A DNA stretch of 40,576 bases from Bacteroidales bacterium (GTDB lineage: Bacteria; Bacteroidota; Bacteroidia; Bacteroidales; JAADJA01): assembly GCA_026984135.1 (NCBI GenBank), contig JALSSR010000208.1:1-40576 (forward strand), in the 5' to 3' direction. The notes beneath the pieces were generated by a model. It was given only the letters and a program-made list of their open reading frames with translations. It did no database searches and was not told the DNA's origin. Positions 20,014-40,109 of this stretch are shown here, piece by piece. Every line of letters begins with the position of its first letter. Position 1 is the first letter of the stretch. The position numbers were made by a program, and so were the translations under genes.

Positions 20014-20144
20014 CAGAATTTCATTAAATTTGGACAATAAAAGTAGTAATAAATAGTGATAGCGACATATGTTTTTTATTTTACTGCTCTTTTTTACGCC
20101 GTTTGATAAATTTATTTGCTTGGTGAAAGACGTTAAATAGCTGT

Positions 20145-20739: not shown

Positions 20740-22341
20740 TTACTGAGGCACTTTAGAAACTTTCCCCATATTTTCAACGGAAATATCATTTTTATCGGGA
20801 TTGTTAACCTGCGTATTGAGATTGAAATCCGCATTAAAATATCCTCTTTTACCTGCTTTTTGTGACCAAATCTGAATGTCGGAAGAATTAATTGTATCGT
20901 TACCATTGCAGTTTCCACCATACATACCCCATCTGTTTGTTGCAAGCTGTTTTTGACCGTCGGTTCCGAAAGCCTGGCTGTTTGAAGTTGTAAAATTGTA
21001 GGAATAAACTCCGTCGGACAATACAAGAGCACTTGCCGACATTATCCCGAGGTGGTTTCTGTGTCTTATAACGACAAAAAGGGAGTCGGAAAAGGAATTG
21101 TCAAATGTAAGAAATGACGAACCGTCCAAGTCAACAATGGAGCCGTCGTTTAAAAGAAAAGCAGCTTTTTGTGCAATTGTTGTTGCCGACGTAGCTGACG
21201 AAGGGCTGCTTGCGTCTCTAAGTTCCGTAAGAACCCAGTCAACAACGCCGTTGGGAACGGAATCAACATATTCGGTTCCCTGATAATTCCAGGGAGGTGT
21301 GTTAAACGGTTGTTGTAATGGGATAACACCGGCTTCGGACAAGGTTGTATCCATATCACTTCCATTGAAAGCACCTTCAAGGAAAGCTGTTATGTTAAGA
21401 TGTAATCGTAATTTTATTGCCATCGGAGAGCTTGTGTCTCCCACTGCAAAAGCCGAAAGTTCCGTAATTCCCGAACGGGAAATAAAATAGGGATTATTAC
21501 CTTCCGCCGCCACTTCCGTCTGAGGATTCCAGCTTCCCAAATGAAAATGACCGATGCCGGAATGAACTCTGTCGAAATTAATACCTTCGTTATTTTCATT
21601 CCAATATGTTGTTACAGTGAGGTTTGACCCTCCGGGAATTTGTTCCGTGATATCCCAGGTATTGTTTACACAGTGGTCTATCTCCGAAACGGTTGTTCCC
21701 GAAAGACCTTCATCCAAAACGTCGTTAAAAACTCTCACTCCGAAATAGTCGGAAAGTCCCGAATTTTTTAAAATTATCGGTGTGAAAGAAGTTTGAGTCC
21801 CAATAGGAAATTCGACATTTGCGGTGTCAACTTCCATAAAGAGTCTGCCGCTGTTTCCCGCATTGACATAACCGGATTCCGAACTTCCCGAAATTACCGC
21901 TCCCTGCTCCAAAAACAGATTGTTAGTGTCAAGGGATAGCAAGCCGGACGAAAATATCAATTTATTGGAGATGGAAATACCGTTTGTGAGTAATACATCA
22001 TTTTGGATTTTCAATTTGTTGAAGAGGGTACTATTCGTTCCGCCGATTATCTGTTCCGTTTGGCCGTCGAAGATAACAAAACCGGCGGTGTCGGTAAGGA
22101 TATTACCTGAAACGCCGTTATTATACCAGTTGTCGAGAATAGTAATGTTTCCCGAGTTAAGAAATTGTCCGTTTGAAAGGTTTATAAGCTCCGAATTGAG
22201 TGTTAAATCAGAGCCGTTGGAGATGATGACTTTAGCACCGTTATTGACAAAAAACTGGGCAAAGACGATTTCCGGAGCCGAAAAAAGAAGAATCAACGGC
22301 AGCAGAAGACAAAAACCTATATGTTTATAATTACTCTTCAT
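20740..22341 (-). CDS. Secreted protein with dockerin-like C-terminal module
   Basis: Signal peptide MKSNYKHIGFCLLLPLILLFSAPEIVFAQ; module LRLHLNITAFLEGAFNGSDMDTTLSEAGVIPLQQPFNTPPWNYQGTEYVDSVPNGVVDWVLTELRDA...FVVIRHRNHLGIMSASAL; C-terminal YGGNCNGNDTINSSDIQIWSQKAGKRGYFNADFNLNTQVNNPDKNDIS...KVPQ. Confidence 0.82.
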   Translation of the reverse strand: MKSNYKHIGFCLLLPLILLFSAPEIVFAQFFVNNGAKVIISNGSDLTLNSELINLSNGQFLNSGNITILDNWYNNGVSGNILTDTAGFVIFDGQTEQIIGGTNSTLFNKLKIQNDVLLTNGISISNKLIFSSGLLSLDTNNLFLEQGAVISGSSESGYVNAGNSGRLFMEVDTANVEFPIGTQTSFTPIILKNSGLSDYFGVRVFNDVLDEGLSGTTVSEIDHCVNNTWDITEQIPGGSNLTVTTYWNENNEGINFDRVHSGIGHFHLGSWNPQTEVAAEGNNPYFISRSGITELSAFAVGDTSSPMAIKLRLHLNITAFLEGAFNGSDMDTTLSEAGVIPLQQPFNTPPWNYQGTEYVDSVPNGVVDWVLTELRDASSPSSATSATTIAQKAAFLLNDGSIVDLDGSSFLTFDNSFSDSLFVVIRHRNHLGIMSASALVLSDGVYSYNFTTSNSQAFGTDGQKQLATNRWGMYGGNCNGNDTINSSDIQIWSQKAGKRGYFNADFNLNTQVNNPDKNDISVENMGKVSKVPQ

Positions 22342-23920
22342 TTTTGGAATTATCGTTAATTGTTTTTTCCGTATGACCGGGCAAAAGGCCGTTATGATAA
22401 GGTATTGTATCGAAATCCGGTTTTTGTAAAAAATTACCGGGAGCGGCTATGTTTTCGGAAGCAGCCGGGCCGATTTTTACCGCCCCGACAGTACGTCGAA
22501 TTTTAACGCCGTTTGTTGCACCGCTATAAGAAATTGATTCGTGATAGACTCCACCTGACCCGTGGTTGGAGCCCGCAACCAAAATAAGTTCCAGTCCGGG
22601 ACCGTGTCCTGCATTAGCCTTGTTTAAAGCGGTTTGCAGCGAAACACAAGGTTTTACGGAAGTCCCGACCGTAGAGTTAAGGTGATGTCCCTCATCAACA
22701 TAGATTGATTGTGTTTGCCAATAGTGGTTCATTGCCGCTTCCGTGTCGTCGGCTTCAAAACTGGTTCCTTTATTACCCTGGTTTGGCGGATTACAACCAC
22801 CGTGAGTATGGATACCAATAGCTGTTGAATATACCCCGCTAACGCCGCTGCTCATAATAGCACTTCCCGAATTACCTCCTTCGGTATCAACAAGATATTC
22901 CCAATAGACATCATTTGAACCGTTAAAATATTCACCGAGATTATCGCCGATATCATATTGCAATGTCTGGCTGTCGGAATTATAATAACCGGTGCATCCC
23001 GAAGGAGTATGGTCGGTTCCGAAGCCCCGTATTTGAATATTTGCCGGATTGAGATTTCTTGACAAATGATAGTATGCACGTTGTGCTTCGGCAGGAGTGA
23101 GATTGGTATTTGAGTTTGTTCCGCAATTAAAAATTCCCCAATCATCTCCGGTACCGCCTTCCTGCCACACTCTGCTTGAATAGATTATCGGATATTGGTC
23201 TTCAACGGCACAAGGGACAAGAGTTCCGTCACAAAGGGATTGCGGAACATTGAACTGGATGACCTGCAAATCGTAACTTGAAACATTTACACAATGACCT
23301 GCGGTAAGGTAAAAACCACCTGCCGTGATAAACCCCGTACAGCCTATAGGTAAAATTCTTCCGTCAACGTAAGGATAAGAACTGCTGACACGATTATCGG
23401 CTCCGCAAAGGTCAACCGGAGGCTGTTCGCCATAAAAGTCACCGATAGTCATCTCACTGATTTTCAGTGTTATTCCTTTGTCTCCGGGTGCCACAAACAG
23501 AAAAACATCAGCACCTTCGCCTTTAAAGAATGCGGTTTGGTTTTTCCAGACTGAAACTGACGAAGCATTAAAATATTGAATGTCGCCGTCCTGTTGTGAA
23601 ACTATTTTAATATAACTGTTATTACTAAGATTCACATCTTCAAACCTTAATCTTATCCAGGGTGCCGATTCTTTGGTGCTGACGGATTTTTTGAAAACCA
23701 AATAGTCTTTTTCGGGATATTTGACAGTATGAGCCGGAGTAGGATGATAATGAAAAAATTGGCTGTACTCAACCATTTGTGATGTCAACTCTTTCCCGTC
23801 GTGTGTCCCGAAGTCAACGGCAAGTTGCTTTCGGTGGAATGGCAATTCAGCCGTTTGTGAAAATGTTCGTCCCACAACAACGAGTAAAACAAGTGATATT
23901 ACAGCTATTTGCCTTTTCAT
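22331..23920 (-). CDS. Secreted trypsin-like serine protease
   Basis: GCTGFITAGGFYLTAGHCVN (His), GGTGDDWGIF (Asp), DTEGGNSGSAIMS (Ser); signal peptide. The start overlaps the upstream stop (ATGA). Confidence 0.87.
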   Translation of the reverse strand: MKRQIAVISLVLLVVVGRTFSQTAELPFHRKQLAVDFGTHDGKELTSQMVEYSQFFHYHPTPAHTVKYPEKDYLVFKKSVSTKESAPWIRLRFEDVNLSNNSYIKIVSQQDGDIQYFNASSVSVWKNQTAFFKGEGADVFLFVAPGDKGITLKISEMTIGDFYGEQPPVDLCGADNRVSSSYPYVDGRILPIGCTGFITAGGFYLTAGHCVNVSSYDLQVIQFNVPQSLCDGTLVPCAVEDQYPIIYSSRVWQEGGTGDDWGIFNCGTNSNTNLTPAEAQRAYYHLSRNLNPANIQIRGFGTDHTPSGCTGYYNSDSQTLQYDIGDNLGEYFNGSNDVYWEYLVDTEGGNSGSAIMSSGVSGVYSTAIGIHTHGGCNPPNQGNKGTSFEADDTEAAMNHYWQTQSIYVDEGHHLNSTVGTSVKPCVSLQTALNKANAGHGPGLELILVAGSNHGSGGVYHESISYSGATNGVKIRRTVGAVKIGPAASENIAAPGNFLQKPDFDTIPYHNGLLPGHTEKTINDNSKNEE

Positions 23921-24867
23921 TTCACAGGATATTTTTCGGATTTCAGTTCCCTGTTTTCTTCTTCAAGAGTTTTCACTCTTTTGTTAAGGTCAATAATATA
24001 TAGACTGAGTTCCTCGACTTTTTCGAGAAGTTTTTTCTGAATATCACCCACTTCATATCCTCCGTTATCTTTTATTTCTTTTGCGGACGGTATTCCGGGG
24101 AGATGTTTGTTCTCGTTAATACTTTTTTCCATCTCCTCAATAGAAGGAAGTCCGTAATTTTTCTCAAAGACATAGTCGGGCCAGTAGTTGAAATCATCAA
24201 TAAGTATCTCCTCACAAGCTATTTTCCCATTGACAGAAAGCCTGTATCCCGAGGCACCGGAAGATGAACCTATAACAACATTACCCGTAGGGTCAATGAC
24301 AAGTCTGTCAACGTTGCCGTTTCTTAGCCTCAGCCTACCGGAGGATTTGTTAGTGATGTAGAGGTCGTCTCCAAAAGCTTGTATCCAAGCTTTCATAGAG
24401 CTGCCGTGATAAAAGGTCATCATCGGGTCGGAAGTGGATTCAAGTCTGAACAATTCAATACCTCCGGAAACGTGCAGGGGGGCGGACGGGTCATTTGTGC
24501 CGACACCTATTTTTCCCGAATTATAGTAAATATTTGAACCGTTTTGCTGCCAAAAATCATCGTTGGCACGTCCGAGTTTTTGCCACGAAATGCTGTCGAA
24601 ATAGTAATATCCCGGATTATTGTCGGTTTGATAAATCAAGAGACCTTTGGCGGGAGAAACTGGACGCTGAGCAAATGTCATTCTCGGAACAAGAAAACCC
24701 AGCCCCGTTGCCTGAACGTCAAGCATAGCGGAGGAGTCGGGCAAAGCTCCATCCATATTAACAGCTACCTGCGAATAGCCTGATACGGTTGAGATTATAA
24801 ACCCGAATATGATAATGACATTTTTTAAAAAAGATTTTCTTTTACAATGAACATCTAATGTTTTCAT
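23917..24867 (-). CDS. Tail-fibre-like secreted protein (peptidase S74 / endosialidase-chaperone-like C-terminus)
   Basis: AMLDVQATGLGFLVPRMTFAQRPVSPAKGLLIYQTDNNPGYYYFDSISWQKL...GKIGVGTNDPSAPLHVSG...YRLSVNGKIACEEILIDDFNYWPDYVFEKNYGLPSIEEMEKSINENKHLPGIPSAKEI; C-terminal coiled coil. Confidence 0.8.
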   Translation of the reverse strand: MKTLDVHCKRKSFLKNVIIIFGFIISTVSGYSQVAVNMDGALPDSSAMLDVQATGLGFLVPRMTFAQRPVSPAKGLLIYQTDNNPGYYYFDSISWQKLGRANDDFWQQNGSNIYYNSGKIGVGTNDPSAPLHVSGGIELFRLESTSDPMMTFYHGSSMKAWIQAFGDDLYITNKSSGRLRLRNGNVDRLVIDPTGNVVIGSSSGASGYRLSVNGKIACEEILIDDFNYWPDYVFEKNYGLPSIEEMEKSINENKHLPGIPSAKEIKDNGGYEVGDIQKKLLEKVEELSLYIIDLNKRVKTLEEENRELKSEKYPVK

Positions 24868-24878
24868 TTTTGAGTATT

Positions 24879-26045
24879 TTATTTTTCGTTTATCATTAAT
24901 AGCAATTTGTTGAGGTCTTGTTGTAATATTGTTTTTGTTTCAGCGTCTTTTTCCGAGGCAACGGCACTTTTAAAATCGGGTATTGCATCAGTATATTCGG
25001 TTTCGACGAGGTAACCGGCAGCCTTTAGCCTCACATTTTTCGATTTACTCCTCAATAATCCTTTCGACCAACGTATGGAAGGTCTGGAACGTATTGAATA
25101 GAGGTTATCAATAGCACCGATAACAACCGAATCATCATCACTGAAAAGTTTCCAGAAGTTTTCCGACTCAAAAGATATTGTAGGAGGAAAGTAAAGGATT
25201 TCATGATTATTAATTTGCGGTCTGACAACCGTTTCAGGGTAAGAGATAAGTTCTTTGCCGGCAACATATCTTGCCATACGGGGAACTATCCAGCGCATTC
25301 CTGCGGTAGCTTCGGGATGACCGACGGAGACAAAAACTTTTCCCTTTCCGTACGTGGAGGTTAAAAAAGCAGGTTTACCGGGTGTCAATCCTTTCGGGTC
25401 TCCCTTGTGAGTTGCAATATCCGTTGTTATGGTTGCAAGAATATCCATACTTTCCGGCTCAAAAACATCATATATCGGGCCGTCATAATACTGAACAAAG
25501 GAAGTTGTCCGGTTTTCTAATTCGGGAAATATCTTAGCCCCTTTTTCCGACAGTTCAAATCCTATCAGTCCTCTTCCGCGGTTATAGTGGAAACGGTATG
25601 TGTGGGCTTTTATGATTTTTAAACTCGGATAACCGTCGGTCGTAGCAAAAAGATATCCACCTGCACAAATTCCCACAATTCCTTTTCCCGATTTTGCAAA
25701 ATCCTGAACTTTTTGTGCAGCTGTCTGTCCCAAATTATTGAATTCTTTGCTGCCGCTTCCTCCCGGGAAAATCATAACGTCAAGGTTATCAAGAATTCCG
25801 TTTTGTATATCATAAGCCGTAACGGCTCTGCCCTTGATACCTTTATCAATCTTCAATGCCTCAAGGGTTTCGAGAATACATACCGCACTGGCACCGTTAC
25901 CGTTAAAGACACCCACATTCAATAATTCTTTCGCTTTTTTTTCATTCTTTTGTTTCTCTTTGTTCACCTCTGTGCAACCGCCGGAAAACAATAGGACGGC
26001 AATTAAAAAAAGCAAAGTTGGAAAGTTGTAATATCCTTTTTTCAT
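24879..26045 (-). CDS. BPL_N / GATase1-like lipoprotein
   Basis: Lipobox-like LLFSGGC; DNLDVMIFPGGSGSKEFNNLGQTAAQKVQDFAKSGKGIVGICAGGYLFA (GxCAGG nucleophile elbow); VSVGHPEATAGMRWIVPRMARYV. Confidence 0.8.
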   Translation of the reverse strand: MKKGYYNFPTLLFLIAVLLFSGGCTEVNKEKQKNEKKAKELLNVGVFNGNGASAVCILETLEALKIDKGIKGRAVTAYDIQNGILDNLDVMIFPGGSGSKEFNNLGQTAAQKVQDFAKSGKGIVGICAGGYLFATTDGYPSLKIIKAHTYRFHYNRGRGLIGFELSEKGAKIFPELENRTTSFVQYYDGPIYDVFEPESMDILATITTDIATHKGDPKGLTPGKPAFLTSTYGKGKVFVSVGHPEATAGMRWIVPRMARYVAGKELISYPETVVRPQINNHEILYFPPTISFESENFWKLFSDDDSVVIGAIDNLYSIRSRPSIRWSKGLLRSKSKNVRLKAAGYLVETEYTDAIPDFKSAVASEKDAETKTILQQDLNKLLLMINEK

Positions 26046-26084
26046 TTATTTATAATTTAATATTTCATTCCGCCGACTTACAAG

Positions 26085-26110
26085 TAAAAACCGGCATTTA
26101 ACGGTTTTTA
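26085..26110. terminator. Small stem-loop, possible terminator or attenuator between 26124-27350 and 24879-26045
   Basis: Perfect 9-bp stem TAAAAACCG (26085-26093) / CGGTTTTTA (26102-26110), with a T run in the distal arm in either orientation. Confidence 0.4.
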
Positions 26111-26123
26111 TTTCTCAAATAAA

Positions 26124-27350
26124 CTAAGAGCCTATGTTATACTTATCAAATGTTTGATACAACATTTCTATTTTTCTGTCAACCGCATCATAGTATTCTT
26201 TCATCTCTTTGGTGTTCATTCCGTTTTTTCGCCACTTATCCAAATATTTTTCACCCTCATAAAGAATCATATTCTCAAAGGGTTTGATTTTTTGCATAAT
26301 ACCTGTGTTATCGCCGTTGATTAGGGCGTTAATATTAATGTAATACTTTGCATGGGAACCGAGACGATATGAATAAACCTTTTTTTTCTGTTCAAGTGCA
26401 TAATGGCAGAGGGGTGCATCTTTTAAGCTGTCGTCGTATTGCATTACTTGTGGCAGGATGCCGTCCTTATTCAACCACACGGGTATTGTAACGGTTGTAA
26501 GCGGAAACCCGAGCATTGTCCACATTGTAGTGAATGCGGGGTCTTCCCCGTTTTTTACTCCCTGTACTATACAAGATGACGAGCTACCGCTGCGCGGGAT
26601 AAAATCCTTAAAAAAGACCATTTTTTCGGTATTCTCCGGTAAGTTGCCATATTCCGCAACAAGGTCGGTTCCCGTTAGCGAATGAGTAAGGTTTCGCGAT
26701 ATATCATCAACTATTGTTCTGTATGTCAAGCTATTGTTTGCAACGGCATCTCTAAAGACTTCATCGGCCGTAACATACCTGATATAACCGCCTCCCTTTC
26801 CCATTTCGCCTGTAAACGAGTAGTTTGTACGGATAAGGTAGCCGTAAGGAGCAACCGCAGGGTCATTGGCATCAATTTTAGCATACTTAAAATTACCCAA
26901 TTCAAAATATGCGGCACCGCCCCGGGCATCAATAACTCCGAAATTGGCTTCCAGTCTGTAAGGCTTTTTGCGTTTGTCAAGAAATTTCTCAAAATCCGCA
27001 ATTGTGGCACAATTTTGCAAAGCCTCTTTCATCAATCTGCCTTCGTAGCCTGTCTGAGTAATAGTGTCGTTATTCAGATTATAACTTGCGGAGTTCATAA
27101 TGGCAAACCCTTCGCTGTTGTAACCTATCCATATACTTTTTCCCGAAGTGTCAATGGAGTTTACCAATCCGACACAGGAATACTTTCCGTCTTCGAAGAT
27201 TACAATTCTGTTGTTAACGGCCCAGGTATCGCGGTGTTTCAGCAAAAGAGGGCGACCGTCTTTTGTGTATTTTCCTGAAATGACGGCAGTTGTACACGAA
27301 AACAACTTTGCCGAAGCCAGAATGAGAATTAATAAAAGAGCTTTTTTCAT
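26124..27350 (-). CDS. Ntn-hydrolase family linear amide C-N hydrolase (C45 / choloylglycine-hydrolase-like)
   Basis: MKKALLLILILASAKLFS|CTTAVISGKYTKDGRPLLLKHRDTW; candidate N-terminal nucleophile Cys directly after the signal peptide; IGYNSEGFAIMNSASYNLN; EANFGVIDARGGAAYFELGNFKYAKID. Confidence 0.78.
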   Translation of the reverse strand: MKKALLLILILASAKLFSCTTAVISGKYTKDGRPLLLKHRDTWAVNNRIVIFEDGKYSCVGLVNSIDTSGKSIWIGYNSEGFAIMNSASYNLNNDTITQTGYEGRLMKEALQNCATIADFEKFLDKRKKPYRLEANFGVIDARGGAAYFELGNFKYAKIDANDPAVAPYGYLIRTNYSFTGEMGKGGGYIRYVTADEVFRDAVANNSLTYRTIVDDISRNLTHSLTGTDLVAEYGNLPENTEKMVFFKDFIPRSGSSSSCIVQGVKNGEDPAFTTMWTMLGFPLTTVTIPVWLNKDGILPQVMQYDDSLKDAPLCHYALEQKKKVYSYRLGSHAKYYININALINGDNTGIMQKIKPFENMILYEGEKYLDKWRKNGMNTKEMKEYYDAVDRKIEMLYQTFDKYNIGS

Positions 27351-27360
27351 AGTTTAAAAT

Positions 27361-28851
27361 TTATTTTTTTTCGGGGAACCAGCCTCCGTTTGAAGTGTTA
27401 ATTCCATCTGCATTGGCAACGCCGCCGAAGGTATAAATACCCATTTCCATAACCATCAGTTCTTTTGCCGGAATCGGGAAATGGAGTAGTGTTCCGTACT
27501 GTAACATATCTCGCCGGCGCATATCAAAGAAAGCGATACCGAAGCCTGTTTGTATCAGCTCGATATCACGCTCATAGAAAATAGCCTTGAGTAAATCTTC
27601 TTTTGAGATAGTTTCTTCGAGGGGTGCTAATCCGCCTCTTTCCGTCCTTGAACCGTCATTAACGATTTGTACGGCTCCGGCGATGTCACCGAGTTCTGCA
27701 AGAGCTTCGGCTTTAATAAGGTCGTTTTCGGCCAAAATAAAATCAGGTGAAGGGCCTGTGGTAGTAGTTATTGAAAGAGGGTATCTGACATATTCATAAT
27801 TTGAATAATGGTAGTAACCTCTTTCCGGCTTCATATTGTTTTGTGCATTAAATGCAAAATCGGAATCAAGTCTTTTATCGTCAGATACTGCTTTTTCAGG
27901 ATTATGTCCGTCATCCGGGAAACGCCATGGATAATTCGGATCCATAAGGTTTATTATTCTACAGTCAATTCTTGCCCAGCCGGGTCTTACGGTATAGTGA
28001 CGGAACCAACTTCTCCAGGTTGATCCGTCCATATAAGGAGCAAGGTCTTGTTCAATACCATTTTCTGCATAATGCAGAACTCTGTTCCAGTCTGTTTGAC
28101 TGTTTTGCTGTTTATTTCGCGGTGCATAAATAAGAAATCTTGCAGCAAAGGAGTTTGCAAGCTGAGCAATCTCATCATCAGTATATTGCGAACCGTTAAT
28201 ATAATTATCAGGGAGAGTGAAAGAGACTCCCGGTCTGTTACAAATTGCAATCGCCGAGTCGAGAGATACAATGGCCGCTTCGACCACATCCATATAAGGT
28301 GATAGGGGTGTGGTATTCGGATCGGAAAATTCTTTCATTATAAATGCTTTGTCATACACCAGTCCCAGATAACCAAGTGAAAATCCCTGAATCAAATAAC
28401 TAATTGCCCTGACCTTTTGTGTTTCATCAACGTCGTCAATAACTATTTCCATACCACCCTCAATTTTTTCAAGTACTGAATTCATCATCACAAGATTACC
28501 ATAAAGTTCTTTCCAATACTCCTCATAAATATGTGCATACGTGTACGACACAGAATTGTTAAACGGTTGCCGTGGTTCCATTGACAAATGATACATTCCG
28601 CTGTTAGCCCAGGAGCACGTGCCCTGGTCGGCGGCAACCCACATTGACATACGTGGAGAGATGCTGGAATTATTTGTCATAAACCAATTATAAAACCCGC
28701 TTAAAGCTATACTGTTAACATCTTCAGGGTTTTTTAATGCTCTTTCCTTATCAGGATCATTCAGATTTTTAACATCCAAATCTTTCGTACACGAACCGAT
28801 TAGGATGGCAAATAATGTAAATGCTAAATAAAATATATATCTGTTTTTCAT
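27361..28851 (-). CDS. SusD/RagB family outer-membrane lipoprotein
   Basis: Lipobox LIGSC; DPNTTPLSPYMDVVEAAIVSLDSAIAI; FILAENDLIKAEALAELGDIAGAVQIVNDGS; IFYERDIELIQTGFGIAFFDMRRRDML; LHFPIPAKELMV. Confidence 0.93.
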   Translation of the reverse strand: MKNRYIFYLAFTLFAILIGSCTKDLDVKNLNDPDKERALKNPEDVNSIALSGFYNWFMTNNSSISPRMSMWVAADQGTCSWANSGMYHLSMEPRQPFNNSVSYTYAHIYEEYWKELYGNLVMMNSVLEKIEGGMEIVIDDVDETQKVRAISYLIQGFSLGYLGLVYDKAFIMKEFSDPNTTPLSPYMDVVEAAIVSLDSAIAICNRPGVSFTLPDNYINGSQYTDDEIAQLANSFAARFLIYAPRNKQQNSQTDWNRVLHYAENGIEQDLAPYMDGSTWRSWFRHYTVRPGWARIDCRIINLMDPNYPWRFPDDGHNPEKAVSDDKRLDSDFAFNAQNNMKPERGYYHYSNYEYVRYPLSITTTTGPSPDFILAENDLIKAEALAELGDIAGAVQIVNDGSRTERGGLAPLEETISKEDLLKAIFYERDIELIQTGFGIAFFDMRRRDMLQYGTLLHFPIPAKELMVMEMGIYTFGGVANADGINTSNGGWFPEKK

Positions 28852-28862
28852 TTTTTATTGAT

Positions 28863-31800: not shown

Positions 31801-32255
31801 CCCGGAAGAGTAGTTCCGTCGGTTTTTGATGTTACGGTTCCTTTAATTGTTTTTTCCCCACCCTCCTGACCTTTTTGCTTTACCGGTACCGGCTTTTTTT
31901 CAACCTCTTTTTCCTTGATTACGTAATAATCATCTCTTAATTTTTTAAATTGAAAATCAGTGCCGTCGGTGAGCTGATTCAATGCCTCTTCAGCATCTTT
32001 ACTTTTAAGGATTTTTTTAGAATCCTTATTTATTTTATTAATTATTTTTTTGTCCTTCTTGGCTGCCTGAGCATCAATAGTTATTGAAATGTCGTATTTC
32101 GATTCTATCTTTTCAATAAACTTTTCAACTCCGGCAGTGCTGTTATCACCCTGTCCGTTGCTTATCGCTATCGAAGGAAACCCCAGGACACTTAGGAAAA
32201 ACGTCAAGATTAATCCAAATCTTGAGAAAAGTAAAAGTCTGTTTTTCATATACAA
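28863..32255 (-). CDS. SusC/RagA family TonB-dependent receptor with N-terminal STN domain
   Basis: STN-like KFIEKIESKYDISITIDAQ...AEEALNQLTDGTDFQFKKLRDDYYVIKE; CarboxypepD_reg-like IKGTVTSKTDGTTLPGVNVFVKGTTIGVATDIDGKYEI; plug GKVAGMDVIRANGLPGSGAAIRIRGSSSLTGNQKPMIVLDG...YEVVKGAAASALYGSQAGNGVIVITTKRG. Confidence 0.96.
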   Translation of the reverse strand: MYMKNRLLLFSRFGLILTFFLSVLGFPSIAISNGQGDNSTAGVEKFIEKIESKYDISITIDAQAAKKDKKIINKINKDSKKILKSKDAEEALNQLTDGTDFQFKKLRDDYYVIKEKEVEKKPVPVKQKGQEGGEKTIKGTVTSKTDGTTLPGVNVFVKGTTIGVATDIDGKYEITVPEDAASLVFSFMGYKQVEVPIAGKTEINVQLEEDVFGLEEVVISGVASATPRKNLTVSVTKVDASEIDKAPPSSAATALQGKVAGMDVIRANGLPGSGAAIRIRGSSSLTGNQKPMIVLDGTILYTNLADINTDDIESYEVVKGAAASALYGSQAGNGVIVITTKRGKASGKDKTSVIFRQEYGFQKLAKQIELSTHHPYKLADDWEDYSYTRYAGIWYNDDGYPISGNRILNDPDKTYADQPYAKIYNNQDLFYTKGAYSTSYISFSGASKTSSFMVSYEHNRQQGILFETEGYKRNNLRLNLDHNVSKKIKISTSNLFLTTNSDNPGSNATFNDLLFMGPDVDLTQPNDNGTPYLVDPDPWSIAQNPLYPLAYRERNSKRMSFIGNVRAIWDIYEGLTANVKYSYEYRNKQWNTYTPKGYLYDAPTYIKGSLYKESYYEFNQNFQTTINYIKQINDFTGKLKLSYLYENQSYNDFWVTGREFSVADVPQLDWTDPTKGSMSSYEGKKVAINYIGIVDLDYQNKYLLSMLYRMDGSSLFGANERWHPFYRISGAYRITQGIEIPGIQELKVRAAYGTSGQRPGFSWQYETWSGNGSYVVPGTMGNKNLKPSITGEFEVGLNMDFLNRFSFEFVYSNSNTKGAIRNAPVPSNTGYSNQWANVGDINAQAFEATLSSSIIKNNNINWNINLMFDRIRQTITKLVIPPYNTGPKNAFYFREGETFAVMYGYKWVKSLDEMANQLPAGKTIDDYQLNSDGYVIPKGTEGTNDEIPVALDIDNDGLADKVQIGNGNPNFNLSLSNTFDFKGFTLYFLLAWKNGGDVYNFTRQYTFRDLRAIEFDQFGKPESEKKSINYYSTFYKNTEVNSYFVEDGSFLKLREISLYYTFNKDQMAWFARGLIKSIRLGIQAQNVFTITKYTGYDPEVASGSDLTNYYFDDFGYPNFRTFSGSLQITF

Positions 32256-32258
32256 TAA

Positions 32259-33221
32259 TTATTTAAGGTTAATTATTCCGTTTTCTTCTGTTATTTTTTT
32301 ATCCGTTATATATGCAATAGCTTTAAGAATCAGATTAGGGTCGTCGGAGGGAGCAGATCCGAAAAGTTGTTTCTGCAGAGTCTTTCCGTCTTCAATATTA
32401 ATATTCAAATCATACGAATCTGAAAGAAAATCAACGGCTTCACCAACAGTACAATACTTAAAATGAAGCTTTTCGTTTAACCAGGAAAAATAGAGATTTT
32501 TGTTAACTCTATTTTGTTTAACAAAGTTGCCGTTTAAAAAAATGATTTGTTCTCCACTTTGTGATAAAAAGAACGACTTGTCCGATTCTGCCGAGGAAAT
32601 ACGCACTTTACCCTCGTTCAAAACTACCTGTATCCTTTCGGAAATATCGGAGACAGTAAATTTTGTTCCGAGAACCGTAACTGTAATATCCTTTGCATGA
32701 ACCCTGAAAGGATGAGCCGGATTTTTGGTTATTACAAAGTAAGCACGTCCAACAATGTTTACCTCTCTTTTAAAGCGATTTAACCAGTCGTTTTTGTAAG
32801 ATATTCCGGAATGTTTATCCAATGTAATCACCGAGCCGTCCGGTAGTGTAACCTTCATTGTTTTTTCAGAATTATTGCTAAATAAATGTTCGTTTGTTAA
32901 ATTATTATATAGAATAATTCCCGCACCGATTGAAAGTAAAATAATTATGGAAGCGGCAATTTTCATCCACATTCCGCCAATGCCGATTGCGGCCTTTTGT
33001 ATATCGTGTTCCGTATCAGTATCAATTTTCTCAAATATCTCTTTCCTGATTTGCGAAATATCAAATTGGTTAACATCAAAGATATTGCTGTTATAAATCC
33101 GTTCAATCACGTTATACTCATCCCGATGACTCTTTTTCCAGGAATGTGCCAATTGCATTTCCTCCGCAGTTGCTTCTCCTGCAAGGGATTTGATTACAAT
33201 ATTAATTATTTTATCATCCAT
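32259..33221 (-). CDS. FecR family anti-sigma factor
   Basis: N-terminal cytoplasmic region, single TM (IAASIIILLSIGAGIILY), MKVTLPDGSVITLDKHSGISYKNDW..REVNIVGRAYFVITKNPAHPFRVHAKDITVTVLGTKFTVSDI. Confidence 0.93.
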   Translation of the reverse strand: MDDKIINIVIKSLAGEATAEEMQLAHSWKKSHRDEYNVIERIYNSNIFDVNQFDISQIRKEIFEKIDTDTEHDIQKAAIGIGGMWMKIAASIIILLSIGAGIILYNNLTNEHLFSNNSEKTMKVTLPDGSVITLDKHSGISYKNDWLNRFKREVNIVGRAYFVITKNPAHPFRVHAKDITVTVLGTKFTVSDISERIQVVLNEGKVRISSAESDKSFFLSQSGEQIIFLNGNFVKQNRVNKNLYFSWLNEKLHFKYCTVGEAVDFLSDSYDLNINIEDGKTLQKQLFGSAPSDDPNLILKAIAYITDKKITEENGIINLK

Positions 33222-33233
33222 AACAATCGGGTT

Positions 33234-34892
33234 TTATTTTTTTATAACTTTTCGGGTTATTATATTGTTATCATATTTTACTTTTATCAGGTAAATACCT
33301 TTGTCCCAGTTGGTTGTATTTATCTCTTTAGTGCCGTTCAGGATTTCGGAATTAAAAATCAATTTACCGGAGATATCATAGATATACAAATTCGGTTTAC
33401 CGGAAATAGTCCGGTTTGATTTAATTAAAATTTTACCTGAAAAGGGATTCGGAAGGGTTGTGAAATCTGCCGATACTTCCCAATCGTTGTTAGCGGTCAA
33501 AATATCCAATTGTACTTCATTCGACCAGGTTGAAGGATACCAGTAATCGTTAACTTTTGCCCTGACCCTGTAAGAATGAATATCTGCAGGATTGTTGACA
33601 ACAATGAGTAATGCCGTGTCCTGATAGTCATTGGTAATTGTCTCCCAAGCTCCCGAGTTAATTTTTTGCTGCACCTCAAAGGCATTAACATCAATGGTAT
33701 GTGTATATTGCCATTTTAAAGTGAACATATTGGTATCAATATGCATTTGAGCATCATTCAAATAAACATTGGGAATAAAATCAAGAACACCACCGAGTAT
33801 TGTAGTATATCCGCCGGAATTGAAACCGTCCTGAATTGTAAACCAGCCGTTTCCGGAGCCCCACCAGCCCATATTGAGGTGATACCAGCGCGAGCCGTCG
33901 TCTTTTATCCAGAGCCCGTCGCAAACGATGGAATGGCCGCCACCGCTGTTATTTTCCACTGCAAGAATAACAGGGTTTGCCTCAATGATGTTTTTGTCGA
34001 GACGTTGCCAAAAGACGGAAGAGCTTTCCTGCTTGTAAAATGAATAAAACCTGAAGTAGTTGGAGCCCGTTGAAGGAATTTTGTTAACATTTGATGTGGA
34101 ACCGTTATACTCAAAATTCATTTCAAGTGCCACTGCAGCATGGAAAGCAAGTTCTCCGGCAGCTTCTCTTTGGGGGTCGGTGGAAGCCTGATTATTGTAT
34201 TTGTTTTTCATTAACCCCCATTTGTAGTATGTATTACCAAAGTCGGCACTATATGTTCCCGTTGAACTTCCAAGTCCGTCGTAGTATTCATGGTAACCCT
34301 CACCCACAGGAGGCCATTTGTAATAATGAAGAAGTGTTGAGAGCGAAATAGCCACACAACCTGCCGCATAGTGGTTCGGAGTATAATAATTCGTGACATT
34401 TATAAGTTGTCCCGTATTATTATGACAATTTACCTGTCCCCAAAGAGTATAAACATAGGGTCCGTAAATAATATCATCAACCGACTTTGCAGATTTTTTT
34501 CGGATTCCCGAATTAATAACCTGCTTCCGTGAGTTTGAAATATTATTAATGAGAGAGAAAACAGGATTATCTGCAATATTTGCCTCATCAGGAATATTTT
34601 CCGTCAATGAAAAGCCCAAAACCGGATTTGGAAATGCAAATGCGGAAACAATTACATAGCCCTGAGGTTTGAGATTAAAGACATAAGCAACCGGTTTGTT
34701 ATCATTGGAGATCATATACCAGTTATCGCCGGAAACCGAATTATCGGTTTGTTTTTTAATATTTGCTTTTGATATGAAAACTGTGGCTGACGAGAAAGCC
34801 CTGTCAAAACCAATGTTCTGAGATAAGGTAGCAGTAATAGCAAATAGTATGAGTAAAGTAGTTAAAATAGTATGTTTTACATTGGTTGTCAT
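33234..34892 (-). CDS. C10 family (streptopain-like) cysteine peptidase with T9SS sorting domain
   Basis: Pro-domain-like YVIVSAFAFPNPVLGFS; YTLWGQVNCHN; HYAAGCVAISLSTLLHYYKWP (Cys); GGGHSIVCDGLWIKDDGSRWYHLNMGWWGSGNGWF (His); C-terminal PNPFSGKILIKSNRTISGKPNLYIYDISGKLIFN. Start moved to 34892 (MTTNVKHTILTTLL); the ORF-track start at 34940 lies inside a palindrome. Confidence 0.88.
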   Translation of the reverse strand: MTTNVKHTILTTLLILFAITATLSQNIGFDRAFSSATVFISKANIKKQTDNSVSGDNWYMISNDNKPVAYVFNLKPQGYVIVSAFAFPNPVLGFSLTENIPDEANIADNPVFSLINNISNSRKQVINSGIRKKSAKSVDDIIYGPYVYTLWGQVNCHNNTGQLINVTNYYTPNHYAAGCVAISLSTLLHYYKWPPVGEGYHEYYDGLGSSTGTYSADFGNTYYKWGLMKNKYNNQASTDPQREAAGELAFHAAVALEMNFEYNGSTSNVNKIPSTGSNYFRFYSFYKQESSSVFWQRLDKNIIEANPVILAVENNSGGGHSIVCDGLWIKDDGSRWYHLNMGWWGSGNGWFTIQDGFNSGGYTTILGGVLDFIPNVYLNDAQMHIDTNMFTLKWQYTHTIDVNAFEVQQKINSGAWETITNDYQDTALLIVVNNPADIHSYRVRAKVNDYWYPSTWSNEVQLDILTANNDWEVSADFTTLPNPFSGKILIKSNRTISGKPNLYIYDISGKLIFNSEILNGTKEINTTNWDKGIYLIKVKYDNNIITRKVIKK

Positions 34893-34917
34893 AAATATAG
34901 TTTTTTTAAATATTTGT

Positions 34918-34950
34918 ACGGTTTGCAGTGCCTCAGGCACTGCAAACCGT
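34918..34950. repeat. Perfect 15-bp-stem, 3-nt-loop palindrome ACGGTTTGCAGTGCC-TCA-GGCACTGCAAACCGT
   Basis: Exact inverted complementarity between 34918-34932 and 34936-34950, between the C10 peptidase gene and the upstream repeat-protein gene. Confidence 0.93.
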
Positions 34951-34959
34951 CACTTCATT

Positions 34960-37020
34960 TTATTTTGAAATTATCATTTTACGACTGACAGATTTGTCGT
35001 TAACTTTTAGAGAATAAGTATAGAGTCCATTTGCCAGATTTTCCGTATTTATTTTAATTATATGATTTCCATTTGTTTGTCTGCCTTGATTACTTGTATA
35101 AACCATTTTGCCGGTTATGTCGTAAATTGTAAGTTCAACATCAGCCGTTTCCATTAGTTTGTAAGTAATATTTGTAAAAGCGTTTGCCGGATTGGGTGAA
35201 TTTTGCAGAAGTGTAAAGTCGGCCTTCTGAAATTCTTCAACTCCCTGAGCCTGTTCCTCAAAGAAGTCCAGAGCATCTGCAAAGAATGCATCTGTATTTT
35301 GACGTGTATCAATCCGGGCGGTTTCAACGGTCAGAGTGTATATTCTCCAGTTTCCCTGCACCATATAAACACCCGAATAGTAATCACTGTAAACATAACT
35401 TGCAGGTCCCATTTTATAGATTCCCTGAGCCTGATCTGTTATATCCAGTGCATCTGCAAACCATAATCCGTCGGCATAAAACCATTTGACGGGAGTGAAG
35501 GTGCATATGGGATTACCCGGAACAACATCAAGCTGTGGCAAGGGGTCTCCGTCAACGTGTGATTGTGCAACATAAGCACTTATCCCGAGTTTATCATACA
35601 TAAACGACCCGGGTTCGAAGATGTCAAAAGCTCCTCCGTAAATATCAAAAATCCAGTCAAGTCCCTGCAGCCAAACCATTCCCCCTTCATCAAGATATTG
35701 CATTAAAGGAGCATTGAATTTAAGATTTTCATCTACTGCTCCGGGAAGCGTATCGCTGACATCCCAAAGATATAAGTTAACACCGTCATTACCTGTGTAC
35801 CATATAACGAGGTCATAAGCCGATAAGGTCTCATAATCGGGGAAATCGCCTGTTGTAACAGTGTTATAGACATTATGAATATAGCCCAAATTCACAAGAG
35901 AAGTGTCAATTACTTTGTATCTGTCAACACCATTGGCGTTATCGTTTACCAGCAAAACCGTAAAACCTCCGCCCTGGTTTGAAATTTCAATTTGTACGGA
36001 ATCAGCCACACCGGAACCGTCCACAGCACTTGCCACAACCCAAACAGTACCGTTACCGTTATCTGTGCCCGAAGCTTGCAAAAGACCGTTTTGATCAATT
36101 GATGCAAGTACGCCGTCACTTGAAACGGACCAGTAAACAAAAGGTATAGTGGCATCTTCGGGAAGTACTTCTGCGGAAAACTGCAAAGTGCCATAGTTTT
36201 CATCAATTGTTGTTGCTCCACCATCAGCGGAAACATTAATTTGTTCCACAAGCACTCCCGGAGTTGCAAATTGCTCGAAATATGTAAGAGCCTGCGAGAA
36301 AAACTCAACAGTATTTTCATGTGTGTCCAGTCTTGCCGTTTCAAAAGCACAGGAGAGTACTTTACCATCACCTTTCTCGTTATAAATAGCCGAAAAGTAA
36401 TCGGAAAAATCATATCCCGAAGGTCCCATTCTATATACAGACTGACCTGTAGGTGAAGGCATCAAAGCATCCACGAACCACATCGTTTCATACCACCATA
36501 ATAAGGGGTCAATGGAAAAGATTCCGTTTCCTTCAACAAGGTCAAGTTGAGGTACACCGTCGCTCCAAACTCCGTCGTCAACGTGTGATTGTGCCTGATA
36601 AAGTTCAATTCCGAGGTAGTCGTAAACAAATTCACCGGGCAGGAAAGTTGCGGGGGTGGAGTATTTGTCAAACAAAAAGTCCAAACCCTGTACCCAGAAC
36701 ATACCACCGTTGTCAATGTAATCCATTATGGCTTGATTCTCAGTATCGTCACCATTCCAAAAATAGAGTGATGCGGCATCATTTCCCGTGTACCAAATGA
36801 CCAAATCAAAAGGAGCCATAAATTCATAACTCGGCCCTCCCAATTCTACGGTTGCATCCCAATATCCGTATGAAAAACCTGCTTCGGTTATTGCTTGTTT
36901 TATTGTGTCAACCCTGTAGTTAAGCCCGTTGTCATTAACAAGTAAAATAGTCATTTGAGCTTGCGACACATAGAAAAGCCCCATCAGTAATGCAAATGTA
37001 ATTAATAGATGTTTTTTCAT
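34960..37020 (-). CDS. T9SS-exported protein: two GATase-like (Rossmannoid) repeats plus one BIG2-like Ig domain
   Basis: Repeat 1 MTILLVNDNGLNYRVDTIKQ...DLVIWYTGND...GGMFWVQGLDFLFD; BIG2-like INVSADGGATTIDENYGTLQFSAEVLPEDATIPFVYWSVSSDGVLASIDQNGLLQASGTDNGNGTVWVVASAVDGSGVADS; repeat 2 FTVLLVNDNANGVDRYKVID...; CTD LLQNSPNPANAFTNITYKLMETADVELTIYDITGKMVYTS. Confidence 0.85.
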   Translation of the reverse strand: MKKHLLITFALLMGLFYVSQAQMTILLVNDNGLNYRVDTIKQAITEAGFSYGYWDATVELGGPSYEFMAPFDLVIWYTGNDAASLYFWNGDDTENQAIMDYIDNGGMFWVQGLDFLFDKYSTPATFLPGEFVYDYLGIELYQAQSHVDDGVWSDGVPQLDLVEGNGIFSIDPLLWWYETMWFVDALMPSPTGQSVYRMGPSGYDFSDYFSAIYNEKGDGKVLSCAFETARLDTHENTVEFFSQALTYFEQFATPGVLVEQINVSADGGATTIDENYGTLQFSAEVLPEDATIPFVYWSVSSDGVLASIDQNGLLQASGTDNGNGTVWVVASAVDGSGVADSVQIEISNQGGGFTVLLVNDNANGVDRYKVIDTSLVNLGYIHNVYNTVTTGDFPDYETLSAYDLVIWYTGNDGVNLYLWDVSDTLPGAVDENLKFNAPLMQYLDEGGMVWLQGLDWIFDIYGGAFDIFEPGSFMYDKLGISAYVAQSHVDGDPLPQLDVVPGNPICTFTPVKWFYADGLWFADALDITDQAQGIYKMGPASYVYSDYYSGVYMVQGNWRIYTLTVETARIDTRQNTDAFFADALDFFEEQAQGVEEFQKADFTLLQNSPNPANAFTNITYKLMETADVELTIYDITGKMVYTSNQGRQTNGNHIIKINTENLANGLYTYSLKVNDKSVSRKMIISK

Positions 37021-37046
37021 AATTGTGTTTTTTATTATTTATAAAT

Positions 37047-40000
37047 TTATTTAACTATTATCATTTTATTTGTTACAAAAGTAGTGTTAATCCTGAAAGT
37101 ATAGATGTAATAACCACCGGAAAGTCCTAAATCCTTTACCGAAATTTCATATTTATGGTTACCCTTTCCCTGAACACCGAAATTATTGTTATAAACAACC
37201 TTTCCGAAAATATCGTAAATGGTTAATTCAACATCTGACGGTTCATTCAGGTTGTAAGAGAAAGTTGTGAAATCAGAAACCGGATTGGGATAATTGCCTG
37301 AAACTTCAAAATTCGACACTACATTGTTGTCCGTTCCCACCAAGGTATGGAAATACTCAAGCACTTCATAAAACAACTCTTCGGTATTTTCAGGAGTATC
37401 AATTCTTGCGGTTTCCACGGTAAATGTAAATATTTTCGATAAACCATGGACATTGTAAACTCCGGCATAATAATCATCAAAAATATATCCCGCCGGTCCC
37501 ATTTTATAAATACCCTGAGCTTCAGGAGACATGGCAAGTGCATCCGCATACCAGAGTGTTGCATAAGTCCACTGAATGGGAGTTAGGGTGCAAACGGGAT
37601 TTCCAGGAACCACATCAAGCTGGGGAACGCCCTGTCCTCCGTCATCGGCATATGTTTGGGCAAAGTAACTTGAAACTCCCAAATAATCATAAACAAACTG
37701 CCCTTCGGCAAAGTTATCCGGTGCGGCACCATAAACGTCATAGAAAAAATCAAGACCCTGTAACCAGACAATTCCTCCCTCGTCAAGATACTGGATAAGC
37801 GGTGCATTGAATTTGTAATTGTTTGTATCGCTTGTATCCCAAAGCTTAAGATCAACTCCGTCATTTCCGGTGTACCATATTACCACACTATATTGCGAAA
37901 GGGTATTGTAATCGGGGAAGTCGTTAGTGACGACAGTATTATAGATATCATAAGTGTATCCGAGATTGTTCAGTGCCGTATCAAGCTCCAGATACCTGTC
38001 AACTCCGTTGGCATTGTCATTGACCAGAAGTATCTGATAACTGTTACCCTGATTTGAGATGGTTATCATTAAGGAGTCGGCGACACCGGAGCCGTCAGTT
38101 GCTTCGGCTTTAACCCACACGGTTCCGTTACCGGCAGTTGTCCCTGTAGCCTGCAAAAGCCCTGTTTGATCAATTGTAGCAGTGGCTGTTCCGTTTACCA
38201 CACTCCAGTAAACTACCTGATTGGTTGCGTTGGAAGGTTCTACATCAGCCAGCATTTGTAATGTGCCGCCGTTTTCCTCAATTGTTGTTGCTCCGCCTTC
38301 TCCCGAAACCGTAATGTCGGTGACAAGTATGTCTCCGCCCGAGATACTTTCAAAATAGGAAAGTACCTGATTAAATAATGTATCGGTATTTTCCTGAGTA
38401 TCAATTCTGGCGGTTTCAACTGTAAAAGTAAAAATTTTGGAATCATTATAAACGTTGTAAACACCTGCAAAGAGAGTATCAAAAACATATCCTTCGGGGC
38501 CTAAATTATAAATTCCTTCGGCCGAAGATGTCATTTCCAAAGCATCAACATACCACATGGTGCTGTATGTCCATTGCACCGGGGTAAAGTTACAAATAGA
38601 ATTTCCGGGAACAACATCAAGTTGTTCAACTCCCGTTTCGCCGTCATCTACATGTGATTGTCCGAAATATGAATAGACGCCCATATAATCGTAAATAAAT
38701 TGTCCGGGAGAAAAATAATCGGGAGCGCCCCCGTAAATATCATAAAAGTAGTCCAGACCTTGGAGCCATACTATTCCTCCGTTGTCAAGGTACTGGATCA
38801 GAGGCTCATTAAATTTATAATTATTTGTATCGCTAACATCCCAAAGTTTCAGAGCCGTTCCGTCATTTCCGGTGTACCAGATAACGGCATCATAATATGA
38901 AAGAGTGGGTAAGTCGGGATAATCACCGGTTATTGCAGTATTATAGACATCGTAGGCATAGTTGAGTATATAGAGTGTCGTGTCCAAAACTTTATATCTG
39001 TCGGTTCCGAAATTATTATCGTTAACAAGCAGCACTTCAAAGTCGGCACCCTGATTAGAGATGGTAATCATTATCGAGTCGGCAACTCCCGATCCGTCAA
39101 TAGCTTCCGCCTTAACCCAAACCGTGCCGTTACCAATTGTTGTCCCGGTGGCTTTCAACAAACCGTTTTGATCAATGGCAGCTTTTCCCGAACCTTCAAT
39201 AACACTCCAGTAAACCGTAGGATTGGTTGCATTGGGAGGTTGTACATCGGCAAACATTTGGAGTGTGCCGCCGTTTACTAAAATTGTAGTTGCTCCACTG
39301 TCACCCCACACCGAAATATCGGTTACGGGAATACCACCGCCCGATATACTTTCAAAATATGTAAGAACCTGGCTGAAAAGTGTGTCGGTATGTTCTTCAG
39401 TATCAATTCTTGCAGTTTCAACGGTTAAGGTAAAAATCTTTGAGTCGTTGTGTATATTATAAACACCCGCATAATAGTTATCAAAGACATAACCTTGCGG
39501 TCCCATTTTATAAATACCTTCTGCATCGGGAGTCATTTCCAGAGCATCGGCATACCAAAGAGTGGCATAAACCCATTGTACGGGAGTAAATGAACAAAGA
39601 GTGTTACCCGGTACCACATCCAGTTGAGGTAATCCTTGTCCGCCGTCGTCGGCATAAGACTGAGCCGCATAGGTCATGATTCCCATATAGTCATAGACAA
39701 ACTGGCCGGGAGTAAAGCTGTCAGGTGCGCTTCCGTAAACATCATAAAGAAAATCAAGGCCTTGAAGCCAGACTATACCGCCGTTGTCAAGGTATTGTAT
39801 CAGAGGCTCGTTGAACTTGTAATTGTTCGGGTCACTTGTATCCCAAAGATAAAGGTTTAGGCCGTCATTTCCCGTGTACCAGATAACAACATCATAAGGG
39901 CTTAATGTGGAAATACCCGGGAAATCGCCTGTCTCAACCGTATTGTAAATAGTATGTGCCACTCCGATATTAGTCAGAGTTGTATCTATCTCTTTGTATC

Positions 40001-40109
40001 TGTCGGTTCCGTTAGCATTGTCATTTACAAGCAAAACGGTGAATTGGGCATTAACCGCAACGGAAAACATCAATAAAAGAATACCTGCTATTATGTAACT
40101 TTTTTTCAT
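37047..40109 (-). CDS. T9SS-exported protein: three GATase-like (Rossmannoid) repeats plus two BIG2-like Ig domains
   Basis: Three copies of [FY]xxLLVNDNxxGxDRYxxxDT...DxVIWYTGND...LIQYLDxGGIVWLQGLDxxYDxYG...PQLDVVPGN..C, two BIG2-like modules, and CTD NYPNPVSDFTTFSYNLNEPSDVELTIYDIFGKVVYNN. Confidence 0.87.
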   Translation of the reverse strand: MKKSYIIAGILLLMFSVAVNAQFTVLLVNDNANGTDRYKEIDTTLTNIGVAHTIYNTVETGDFPGISTLSPYDVVIWYTGNDGLNLYLWDTSDPNNYKFNEPLIQYLDNGGIVWLQGLDFLYDVYGSAPDSFTPGQFVYDYMGIMTYAAQSYADDGGQGLPQLDVVPGNTLCSFTPVQWVYATLWYADALEMTPDAEGIYKMGPQGYVFDNYYAGVYNIHNDSKIFTLTVETARIDTEEHTDTLFSQVLTYFESISGGGIPVTDISVWGDSGATTILVNGGTLQMFADVQPPNATNPTVYWSVIEGSGKAAIDQNGLLKATGTTIGNGTVWVKAEAIDGSGVADSIMITISNQGADFEVLLVNDNNFGTDRYKVLDTTLYILNYAYDVYNTAITGDYPDLPTLSYYDAVIWYTGNDGTALKLWDVSDTNNYKFNEPLIQYLDNGGIVWLQGLDYFYDIYGGAPDYFSPGQFIYDYMGVYSYFGQSHVDDGETGVEQLDVVPGNSICNFTPVQWTYSTMWYVDALEMTSSAEGIYNLGPEGYVFDTLFAGVYNVYNDSKIFTFTVETARIDTQENTDTLFNQVLSYFESISGGDILVTDITVSGEGGATTIEENGGTLQMLADVEPSNATNQVVYWSVVNGTATATIDQTGLLQATGTTAGNGTVWVKAEATDGSGVADSLMITISNQGNSYQILLVNDNANGVDRYLELDTALNNLGYTYDIYNTVVTNDFPDYNTLSQYSVVIWYTGNDGVDLKLWDTSDTNNYKFNAPLIQYLDEGGIVWLQGLDFFYDVYGAAPDNFAEGQFVYDYLGVSSYFAQTYADDGGQGVPQLDVVPGNPVCTLTPIQWTYATLWYADALAMSPEAQGIYKMGPAGYIFDDYYAGVYNVHGLSKIFTFTVETARIDTPENTEELFYEVLEYFHTLVGTDNNVVSNFEVSGNYPNPVSDFTTFSYNLNEPSDVELTIYDIFGKVVYNNNFGVQGKGNHKYEISVKDLGLSGGYYIYTFRINTTFVTNKMIIVK
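37344..38039 (-). repeat. Repeat unit C (GATase-like domain, no following Ig domain)
   Basis: Begins YQILLVNDNANGVDRYLELDTALNNLGYTYDIYNTVVTNDFPDYNTLS; ends near EVLEYFHTLVG before the CTD. Confidence 0.8.
38040..39041 (-). repeat. Repeat unit B (334 aa, GATase-like plus BIG2-like)
   Basis: FEVLLVNDNNFGTDRYKVLDTTL...ISNQGNS; exactly 1002 bp by residue count, with boundary codons checked in the DNA. Confidence 0.85.
39042..40043 (-). repeat. Repeat unit A (334 aa, GATase-like plus BIG2-like)
   Basis: FTVLLVNDNANGTDRYKEIDTTL...ISNQGAD; exactly 1002 bp by residue count, with boundary codons checked in the DNA. Confidence 0.85.

Follow-up and report, generated by a model that had tools for sequence, protein, structure and literature searches.

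The window analysed here is the whole of contig JALSSR010000208.1 (C208; 40,576 bp), part of a 4.17-Mb draft genome of a Bacteroidales bacterium (assembly GCA_026984135.1). Between positions 20740 and 40109 it carries a run of minus-strand genes that includes a SusC/SusD (SusCD) pair, which is read here, with a probability of roughly 0.6, as part of a locus, conserved among Bacteroidota, by which cells would feed on peptides derived from proteins. As judged from sequence comparison, the gene set is inherited together. It unites a C10 cysteine peptidase and surface repeat proteins, which bear predicted export tails of the type IX secretion system (T9SS), with a predicted outer-membrane import pair and two putative amide-cleaving enzymes, an N-terminal nucleophile (Ntn) hydrolase and a BPL_N lipoprotein, both bearing export signals and retaining complete catalytic residues. 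A first-pass annotation of this DNA had proposed a locus for using peptides or amides rather than a classical polysaccharide utilisation locus (PUL); the linkage of the genes, the proteases and amidases and the absence of carbohydrate-active enzymes (CAZymes) agree with this proposal, while the enzyme labels had to be corrected. The locus comprises the following features:

40214..40576, minus: repeat plus dockerin-like protein, C-terminal 120 amino acids (aa); 12th co-directional open reading frame (ORF), truncated at the contig end, 40576
37047..40109, minus: surface repeat protein, 1020 aa, with three glutamine amidotransferase (GATase)-like repeats, two Big_2 domains and a T9SS sorting tail (Pfam, repeat alignment, AF2/Foldseek)
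34960..37020, minus: surface repeat protein, 686 aa, with two GATase-like repeats, Big_2 and a T9SS tail (Pfam, repeat alignment)
33234..34940, minus: cysteine peptidase of the C10 (streptopain-like) family, carrying an I69 propeptide inhibitor domain and a T9SS tail (PF01640, E 5e-34)
32259..33221, minus: FecR-type anti-sigma factor (PF04773, E 1e-15)
28863..32255, minus: TonB-dependent outer-membrane transporter of the SusC/RagA type, bearing an STN-like signalling domain at its N-terminus (TIGR04056, 616 bits)
27361..28851, minus: SusD-like lipoprotein lid (PF07980)
26124..27350, minus: exported Ntn hydrolase, nucleophile Cys19 (orthologue alignment, AF2, Foldseek, hhalign)
24879..26045, minus: BPL_N lipoprotein, class-I amidotransferase-like domain plus C-terminal helical repeats (PF09825, E 1e-13)
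23917..24867, minus: tail-fibre-like surface protein, accessory (positional orthologue in L072/L053 and L073)
22331..23920, minus: trypsin-like serine protease, accessory, His209/Asp260/Ser351 (PF00089, E 1.4e-5)
20740..22341, minus: secreted accessory protein ending in a dockerin-like module (orthologues in L072 and L073)
20145..20726, plus: extracytoplasmic function (ECF) sigma factor, convergent with the operon (PF04542/PF08281)

Conservation and Synteny of the Locus

Of 149 genomes of relatives, 33 contain an orthologue of the Ntn hydrolase; hundreds of named genomes do so as well, and for these the comparison rests on the best 80 of 524 confirmed homologues. Around these orthologues the order (repeat)-C10-FecR-SusC-SusD-Ntn-BPL_N-sigma recurs, complete or in part, across Bacteroidales, Marinilabiliales, Saprospirales and Flavobacteriales. 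Many of the carriers are marine and sediment Bacteroidota, and one named strain is Labilibaculum euxinus A4. Missing synteny elsewhere had been put forward in the first-pass annotation as a test of its proposal; the outcome was the opposite, the repeat proteins, C10, FecR and SusCD co-occurring across Bacteroidota. In a tree of 81 Ntn proteins two clades are clearly separated, one of them formed by 49 rows with a support of 100. At the assessable loci of this clade, the Ntn gene has a BPL_N neighbour in 42/42 cases, SusCD in 30/34 and C10 in 22/26, whereas the sister clade gives 0/22, 3/21 and 0/17, respectively (Fisher p <1e-7, the rows not being independent). Moreover, the three SusC proteins of the sister clade are of a non-orthologous type, scoring 153-359 bits where full-length orthologues reach about 1090 or more. 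The BPL_N status changes only once on the Ntn tree, which indicates one old association that has long been kept.

The spacing of the genes is also conserved. In orthologous loci, C10 and FecR are separated by 1-25 bp (9/10), SusC and SusD by 3-49 bp (15/15), and Ntn and BPL_N by -17 to 35 bp (10/10), so that the tight spacing in the window is not due to chance; the SusD-Ntn gaps are likewise short in most loci. In the window, all eleven ORFs between 20740 and 40109 described in the first-pass annotation were present in the ORF list on the minus strand, and re-measurement gave the same distances of 3 bp for FecR/SusC, 11 bp for SusC/SusD and 10 bp for SusD/Ntn, as well as the same overlaps of 4 bp (fibre/protease) and 11 bp (protease/dockerin-like). 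The Ntn/BPL_N gap, at 78 bp, is wider than the other core gaps. The ECF sigma gene, which had been overlooked, lies tail to tail with the operon, 13 bp off its end. The Bacteroidetes promoter motif TAnnTTTG occurs at chance level in the window and is absent from the 105 bp upstream of 40109.

Variants of the locus differ in arrangement. Saprospiraceae have the SusCD-C10-repeat half oriented divergently from Ntn-BPL_N, and in Flavobacteriaceae and Labilibaculum SusD is followed by a LamG protein and C10; the order in L. euxinus A4 (L103) is FecR-SusC-SusD-LamG-C10-Ntn-BPL_N. A repeat protein of the 686-aa type was detected in 14 of the 30 SusCD-containing loci. Going by gene order, the core consists of C10, FecR, SusC, SusD, Ntn, BPL_N and sigma, with repeat proteins ahead of C10. 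The block of fibre, trypsin-like and dockerin-like genes, shared with L072/L053 and L073 only, is a lineage add-on outside this core. The eleven-gene unit proposed earlier thus stands as regards its conserved core, while these three genes are additions to it and the ECF sigma factor has to be included. Separately, in loci L138 and L059 a member of the other Ntn clade comes after a sigma-FecR-SusC-SusD set that is unrelated to the present one and is itself followed by a PKD-domain protein, an arrangement suggesting that SusCD loci recruited the Ntn family more than once.

Continuation beyond the Contig Edge

The ORF cut at 40214-40576 has its N-terminal part at the end of contig C273 (L192:10640-13702). 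An intact fusion of GATase-like repeats and a dockerin-like C-terminus in the related genome G149 aligns over residues 1-816 with the end of C273 (70%) and over residues 824-941 with the cut ORF (60%), and in this alignment about 4 residues, roughly 11 bases, are absent at the C273/C208 break. After the fusion gene, G149 carries two repeat proteins, C10, FecR, SusC, SusD, Ntn, BPL_N, fibre, trypsin-like and dockerin-like genes, in an order identical to that of the window. We infer that the locus extends onto C273, the join being drawn from this relative and not sequenced across. Further upstream, C273 encodes a LamG protein, whose T9SS tail is weak, along with two more proteins of the cell surface, a histidine kinase and a DUF748 protein. 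A LamG protein is also present in other variants of the locus, next to SusD or C10.

Like a classical PUL, the locus has a SusC/SusD pair (TIGR04056, PF07980). However, a family search of the window genes returned no glycoside hydrolase, polysaccharide lyase or sulfatase, as the first-pass annotation had stated, and no CAZyme was recognised in the syntenic cores. Glycan-active enzymes past the window edge, which that annotation had named as evidence to the contrary, were also looked for, and none was found on the C273 continuation. The classical PUL was therefore rejected as an explanation.

Predicted Enzymes and Surface Proteins

The Ntn hydrolase carries its nucleophile, Cys19, directly behind the signal peptide, and this residue, Arg40 and Asp41 are invariant in 19 orthologues. 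Its fold together with the N-terminal nucleophile places it in the Ntn superfamily. The best Foldseek match of the AF2 model (pLDDT 89) is a C69 cysteine dipeptidase, with further matches to CV2077, acid ceramidase, penicillin acylase and bile salt hydrolases; the TM-scores of about 0.4-0.5 at 14-16% identity denote kinship at the level of the fold only. Profile comparison with hhalign gave a probability of 87.6 for C69 against 30.9 for AAT/C45. The C45 model of NCBIfam reached 34.8 bits against a cut-off of 85, and no AAT match was obtained for the window protein; one orthologue (L179, 41% identical) passes the AAT model. Pfam C69 gave no match even at a permissive E, and a sequence search returned no solved relatives. 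The C45/choloylglycine label proposed earlier was consequently dropped, with C45 below its cut-off and both profile and fold nearer to the C69 dipeptidases. The enzyme is an Ntn hydrolase between C69 and C45 that passes the curated cut-off of neither family. It shares with C69 an N-terminal CT(T/N) motif, a DG at about +12/+13 and the best fold and profile match, but differs in the missing Pfam match and in the low identity of the structural matches.

Some neighbours of other Ntn proteins were also recorded. At L046:11030-16870, a distant homologue with a T9SS tail lies beside a gamma-glutamyltranspeptidase and a Mur-ligase-like gene, and L048:7723-13549 matches this set, its gene names being assigned from gene order and lengths; both resemble a poly-gamma-glutamate gene set. 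Directly upstream of Ntn-BPL_N, two Flavobacteriaceae carry a glutaminase gene (L111:8672-9586 and L131:9042-9956), identified by a Pfam match for L131 and by similarity for L111. This hints at a glutamine or ammonia theme, as a lead only.

The BPL_N lipoprotein is predicted to be the true amidotransferase-like enzyme of the locus. Cys127 and the His243-x-Glu245 pair, which form the class-I GATase-like Cys-His-Glu pattern, are kept in 12/12 sequences, and the GICAG and GHPE motifs and the lipid-bearing Cys24 are invariant in the same number. Class-I glutamine amidotransferases share the GxCxG nucleophile elbow and the H-x-E pair; in contrast, BPL_N is lipid-anchored and stand-alone, with a helical-repeat C-terminus and no synthetase partner.

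The peptidase belongs to family C10, having the C10 domain, the I69 propeptide and the catalytic residues Cys195 and His336, which are kept in 22/22 aligned sequences (that of the window and 21 locus relatives). The GATase-like repeats, modelled with a pLDDT of 94.5, match GATase-like folds including those of GH42 enzymes, GATases, OST48-containing complexes and IFT52. No conserved cysteine was found among 17 aligned repeats, and an enzymatic role was rejected since the fold is amidotransferase-like but the nucleophile is absent. Of the binding or processing function suggested for them in the first-pass annotation, the fold is confirmed and processing falls away; in the model, they are probably substrate-binding or scaffold (spacer) modules. 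Among the accessory proteins, the His209/Asp260/Ser351 triad of the trypsin-like protease is kept in both syntenic orthologues. The protein at 20740-22341 gave no Pfam dockerin match. The dockerin-like module at its C-terminus spans about 220 aa, contains Asp-rich motifs and is matched by no Pfam family. This module was observed at about 45 places in the genome of the window (G000), where it terminates dozens of large secreted proteins, and may be an unrecognised sorting or anchoring domain.

Transporter and Regulation

The SusC of the window is 46-67% identical to the SusC proteins of syntenic loci and only 27% identical to its best full-length paralogue in its own genome; for SusD, identity to syntenic proteins is 51-73%. 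The SusC model match is strong, while that of the STN domain is weak (E 9e-5, 22.7 bits, under the cut-off). FecR was detected in 20/30 SusCD loci compared with 0/50 others. In nine SusCD-containing named loci a sigma gene is present, nearly always directly after BPL_N and on either strand. A sigma factor, a FecR protein and an STN-bearing SusC make up the usual TonB-receptor/FecR/ECF arrangement. This locus contains the whole signalling set, with its STN domain below cut-off, and the ECF sigma factor probably pairs with FecR.

SusC-like proteins are few in the genome of the window, with only about three detected. Another SusC/SusD pair, at C214:29204-32146 (L193), lies near ROK-type kinases and a GH2-type-glycosidase-like protein, and this region is likely a glycan locus of the organism. 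Adjoining the locus in the window is a large multihaem outer-membrane cytochrome of the MtrC/MtrF type (17536-20166, minus strand), itself next to a HemN-like radical SAM gene, and these neighbours recur in further genomes of this genus.

Proposed Function and Alternative Explanations

In the proposed mechanism, C10, joined in the lineage of the window by the trypsin-like protease, would cut protein at the cell surface, where the GATase-like-repeat and LamG proteins would hold or display the substrate. SusCD would import the resulting oligopeptides by a pedal-bin mechanism, and cargo in SusC could signal through the STN domain to FecR, releasing the sigma factor and switching the locus on. The Ntn enzyme would act in the periplasm, splitting a linear amide or peptide bond in the manner of a dipeptidase, and BPL_N would hydrolyse a second amide there, for example of glutamine or a gamma-glutamyl group. 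A more specific version, offered tentatively and as the less probable one, is a regulated peptide utilisome built from the surface peptidase, the repeat scaffold and SusCD and adapted to linkages that are unusual or rich in amides (glutamine, gamma-glutamyl or isopeptide bonds), which the periplasmic Ntn and amidotransferase-like pair would open. Such a utilisome would represent an ancient way for sediment Bacteroidota to obtain nutrients and would include two enzyme families not described before.

Several observations weigh against peptide feeding. In the SusC profile ranking, the dextran (8AA4) and levan transporters stand ahead of RagA, which imports peptides; this places the pair outside a RagAB-like group by sequence. 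No close solved relative of SusD was found; the SusC/SusD sequences do not separate peptide from glycan and were set aside as a guide to the substrate. The peptide reading is held because of the enzymes, not the transporter. LamG domains are able to bind sugars, and co-transcription of the operon is deduced from spacing alone. Furthermore, three genomes of the same genus (L050-L052) have no SusCD or C10 beside Ntn-BPL_N and no sigma gene on that contig; here a histidine kinase directly precedes the pair and a cytochrome gene directly follows it, so that the SusCD block can apparently be gained or lost around a stable Ntn-BPL_N pair. Given such pairs, the two amidases may serve a wider purpose. 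The same genomes, together with L077, L089, L104 and L108, which also have Ntn-BPL_N without SusCD, could be explained if the transport block merely adjoined an independent housekeeping pair. Such loose co-localisation is very improbable, as both halves remain linked in the majority of the clade's assessable loci despite the Saprospiraceae and Flavobacteriaceae rearrangements, and with short SusD-Ntn gaps in most of them.

The main rival to peptide feeding is a glycoprotein or glycopeptide locus, in which C10 would cut glycosylated protein, SusCD would import glycopeptides and enzymes encoded elsewhere would remove the sugars. The sequence closeness of SusC to glycan transporters and the LamG (ConA-like) domains of the extended locus and its variants are in its favour, and the BT4240-50 mucin locus offers a precedent (PMC11992087). 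However, glycoside hydrolases are absent from all syntenic cores, the neighbours beyond the sigma gene in other genomes resemble housekeeping genes, and a glycan substrate leaves two dedicated amidases unexplained, which makes this explanation unlikely. The locus could also be directed at a single special amide-linked compound (an N-acylated peptide, lipopeptide, isopeptide or gamma-glutamyl polymer), for which Ntn would be the dedicated acylase or amidase and which C10 would only liberate. Ntn-BPL_N is indeed the most conserved unit, above C10 or SusCD, the fold matches include acid ceramidase, penicillin acylase and bile salt hydrolases, and the T9SS-tailed homologue of L046 (in the same order in L048) has gamma-glutamyltranspeptidase and Mur-ligase-like neighbours. 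Nevertheless, C69 dipeptidases outscore AAT/C45, the frequency of C10 (22/26 loci) and the trypsin-like proteases indicate ordinary protein, and no gene for acyl-chain catabolism was seen in the locus; this explanation, too, is rather improbable.

Relation to Known Systems and Significance

Peptide import by SusCD is established for RagAB, and a peptide-bound structure is available for BT2263-64 (PMC11817032, PMC11992087); cooperation of surface binding proteins and peptidases with peptide SusCD has been postulated (PMC11817032). The present locus resembles RagAB of Porphyromonas gingivalis and BT2263-64 in its SusC/SusD architecture and in surface proteolysis before import (PMC11817032). It differs from RagAB in uniting peptidase, binding proteins, import pair, amidases and regulator, and in a SusC that ranks glycan transporters above RagA. 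To our knowledge, RagAB is not encoded together with its peptidases or amidases. With PULs and utilisomes such as those for dextran (8AA4) and levan (8A9Y), described by White et al. (2023, PMC7618045), the locus shares the combination of surface binding proteins, a surface endo-enzyme and SusCD, but its endo-enzyme is a peptidase, its periplasmic enzymes are amidases and no glycan-active enzyme is present. The B. thetaiotaomicron mucin locus BT4240-50 likewise has a peptidase, SusCD and an ECF sigma/anti-sigma pair (PMC11992087); its peptidase, however, is M60-like and is accompanied by glycosidases, which the window locus lacks.

The plan of SusCD, surface enzyme, binding proteins and sigma/anti-sigma factors is therefore already known. 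What is new, as far as we know, is the composition, an outer peptidase combined with an inner pair of Ntn and amidotransferase-like hydrolases. No published description of this gene set as a system was found in the searchable literature, a provisional result with subscription journals largely outside its reach. We also know of no locus combining SusCD, surface binding proteins and peptidases for peptides. Bacteroidota have been studied nearly exclusively as glycan degraders, and protein is a major food in marine sediments. The gene set provides a concrete and widely conserved locus in which a peptide utilisome becomes testable, and it defines the Ntn/BPL_N enzyme pair. It is a good candidate for the protein-eating counterpart to the well-known sugar-eating gene clusters.

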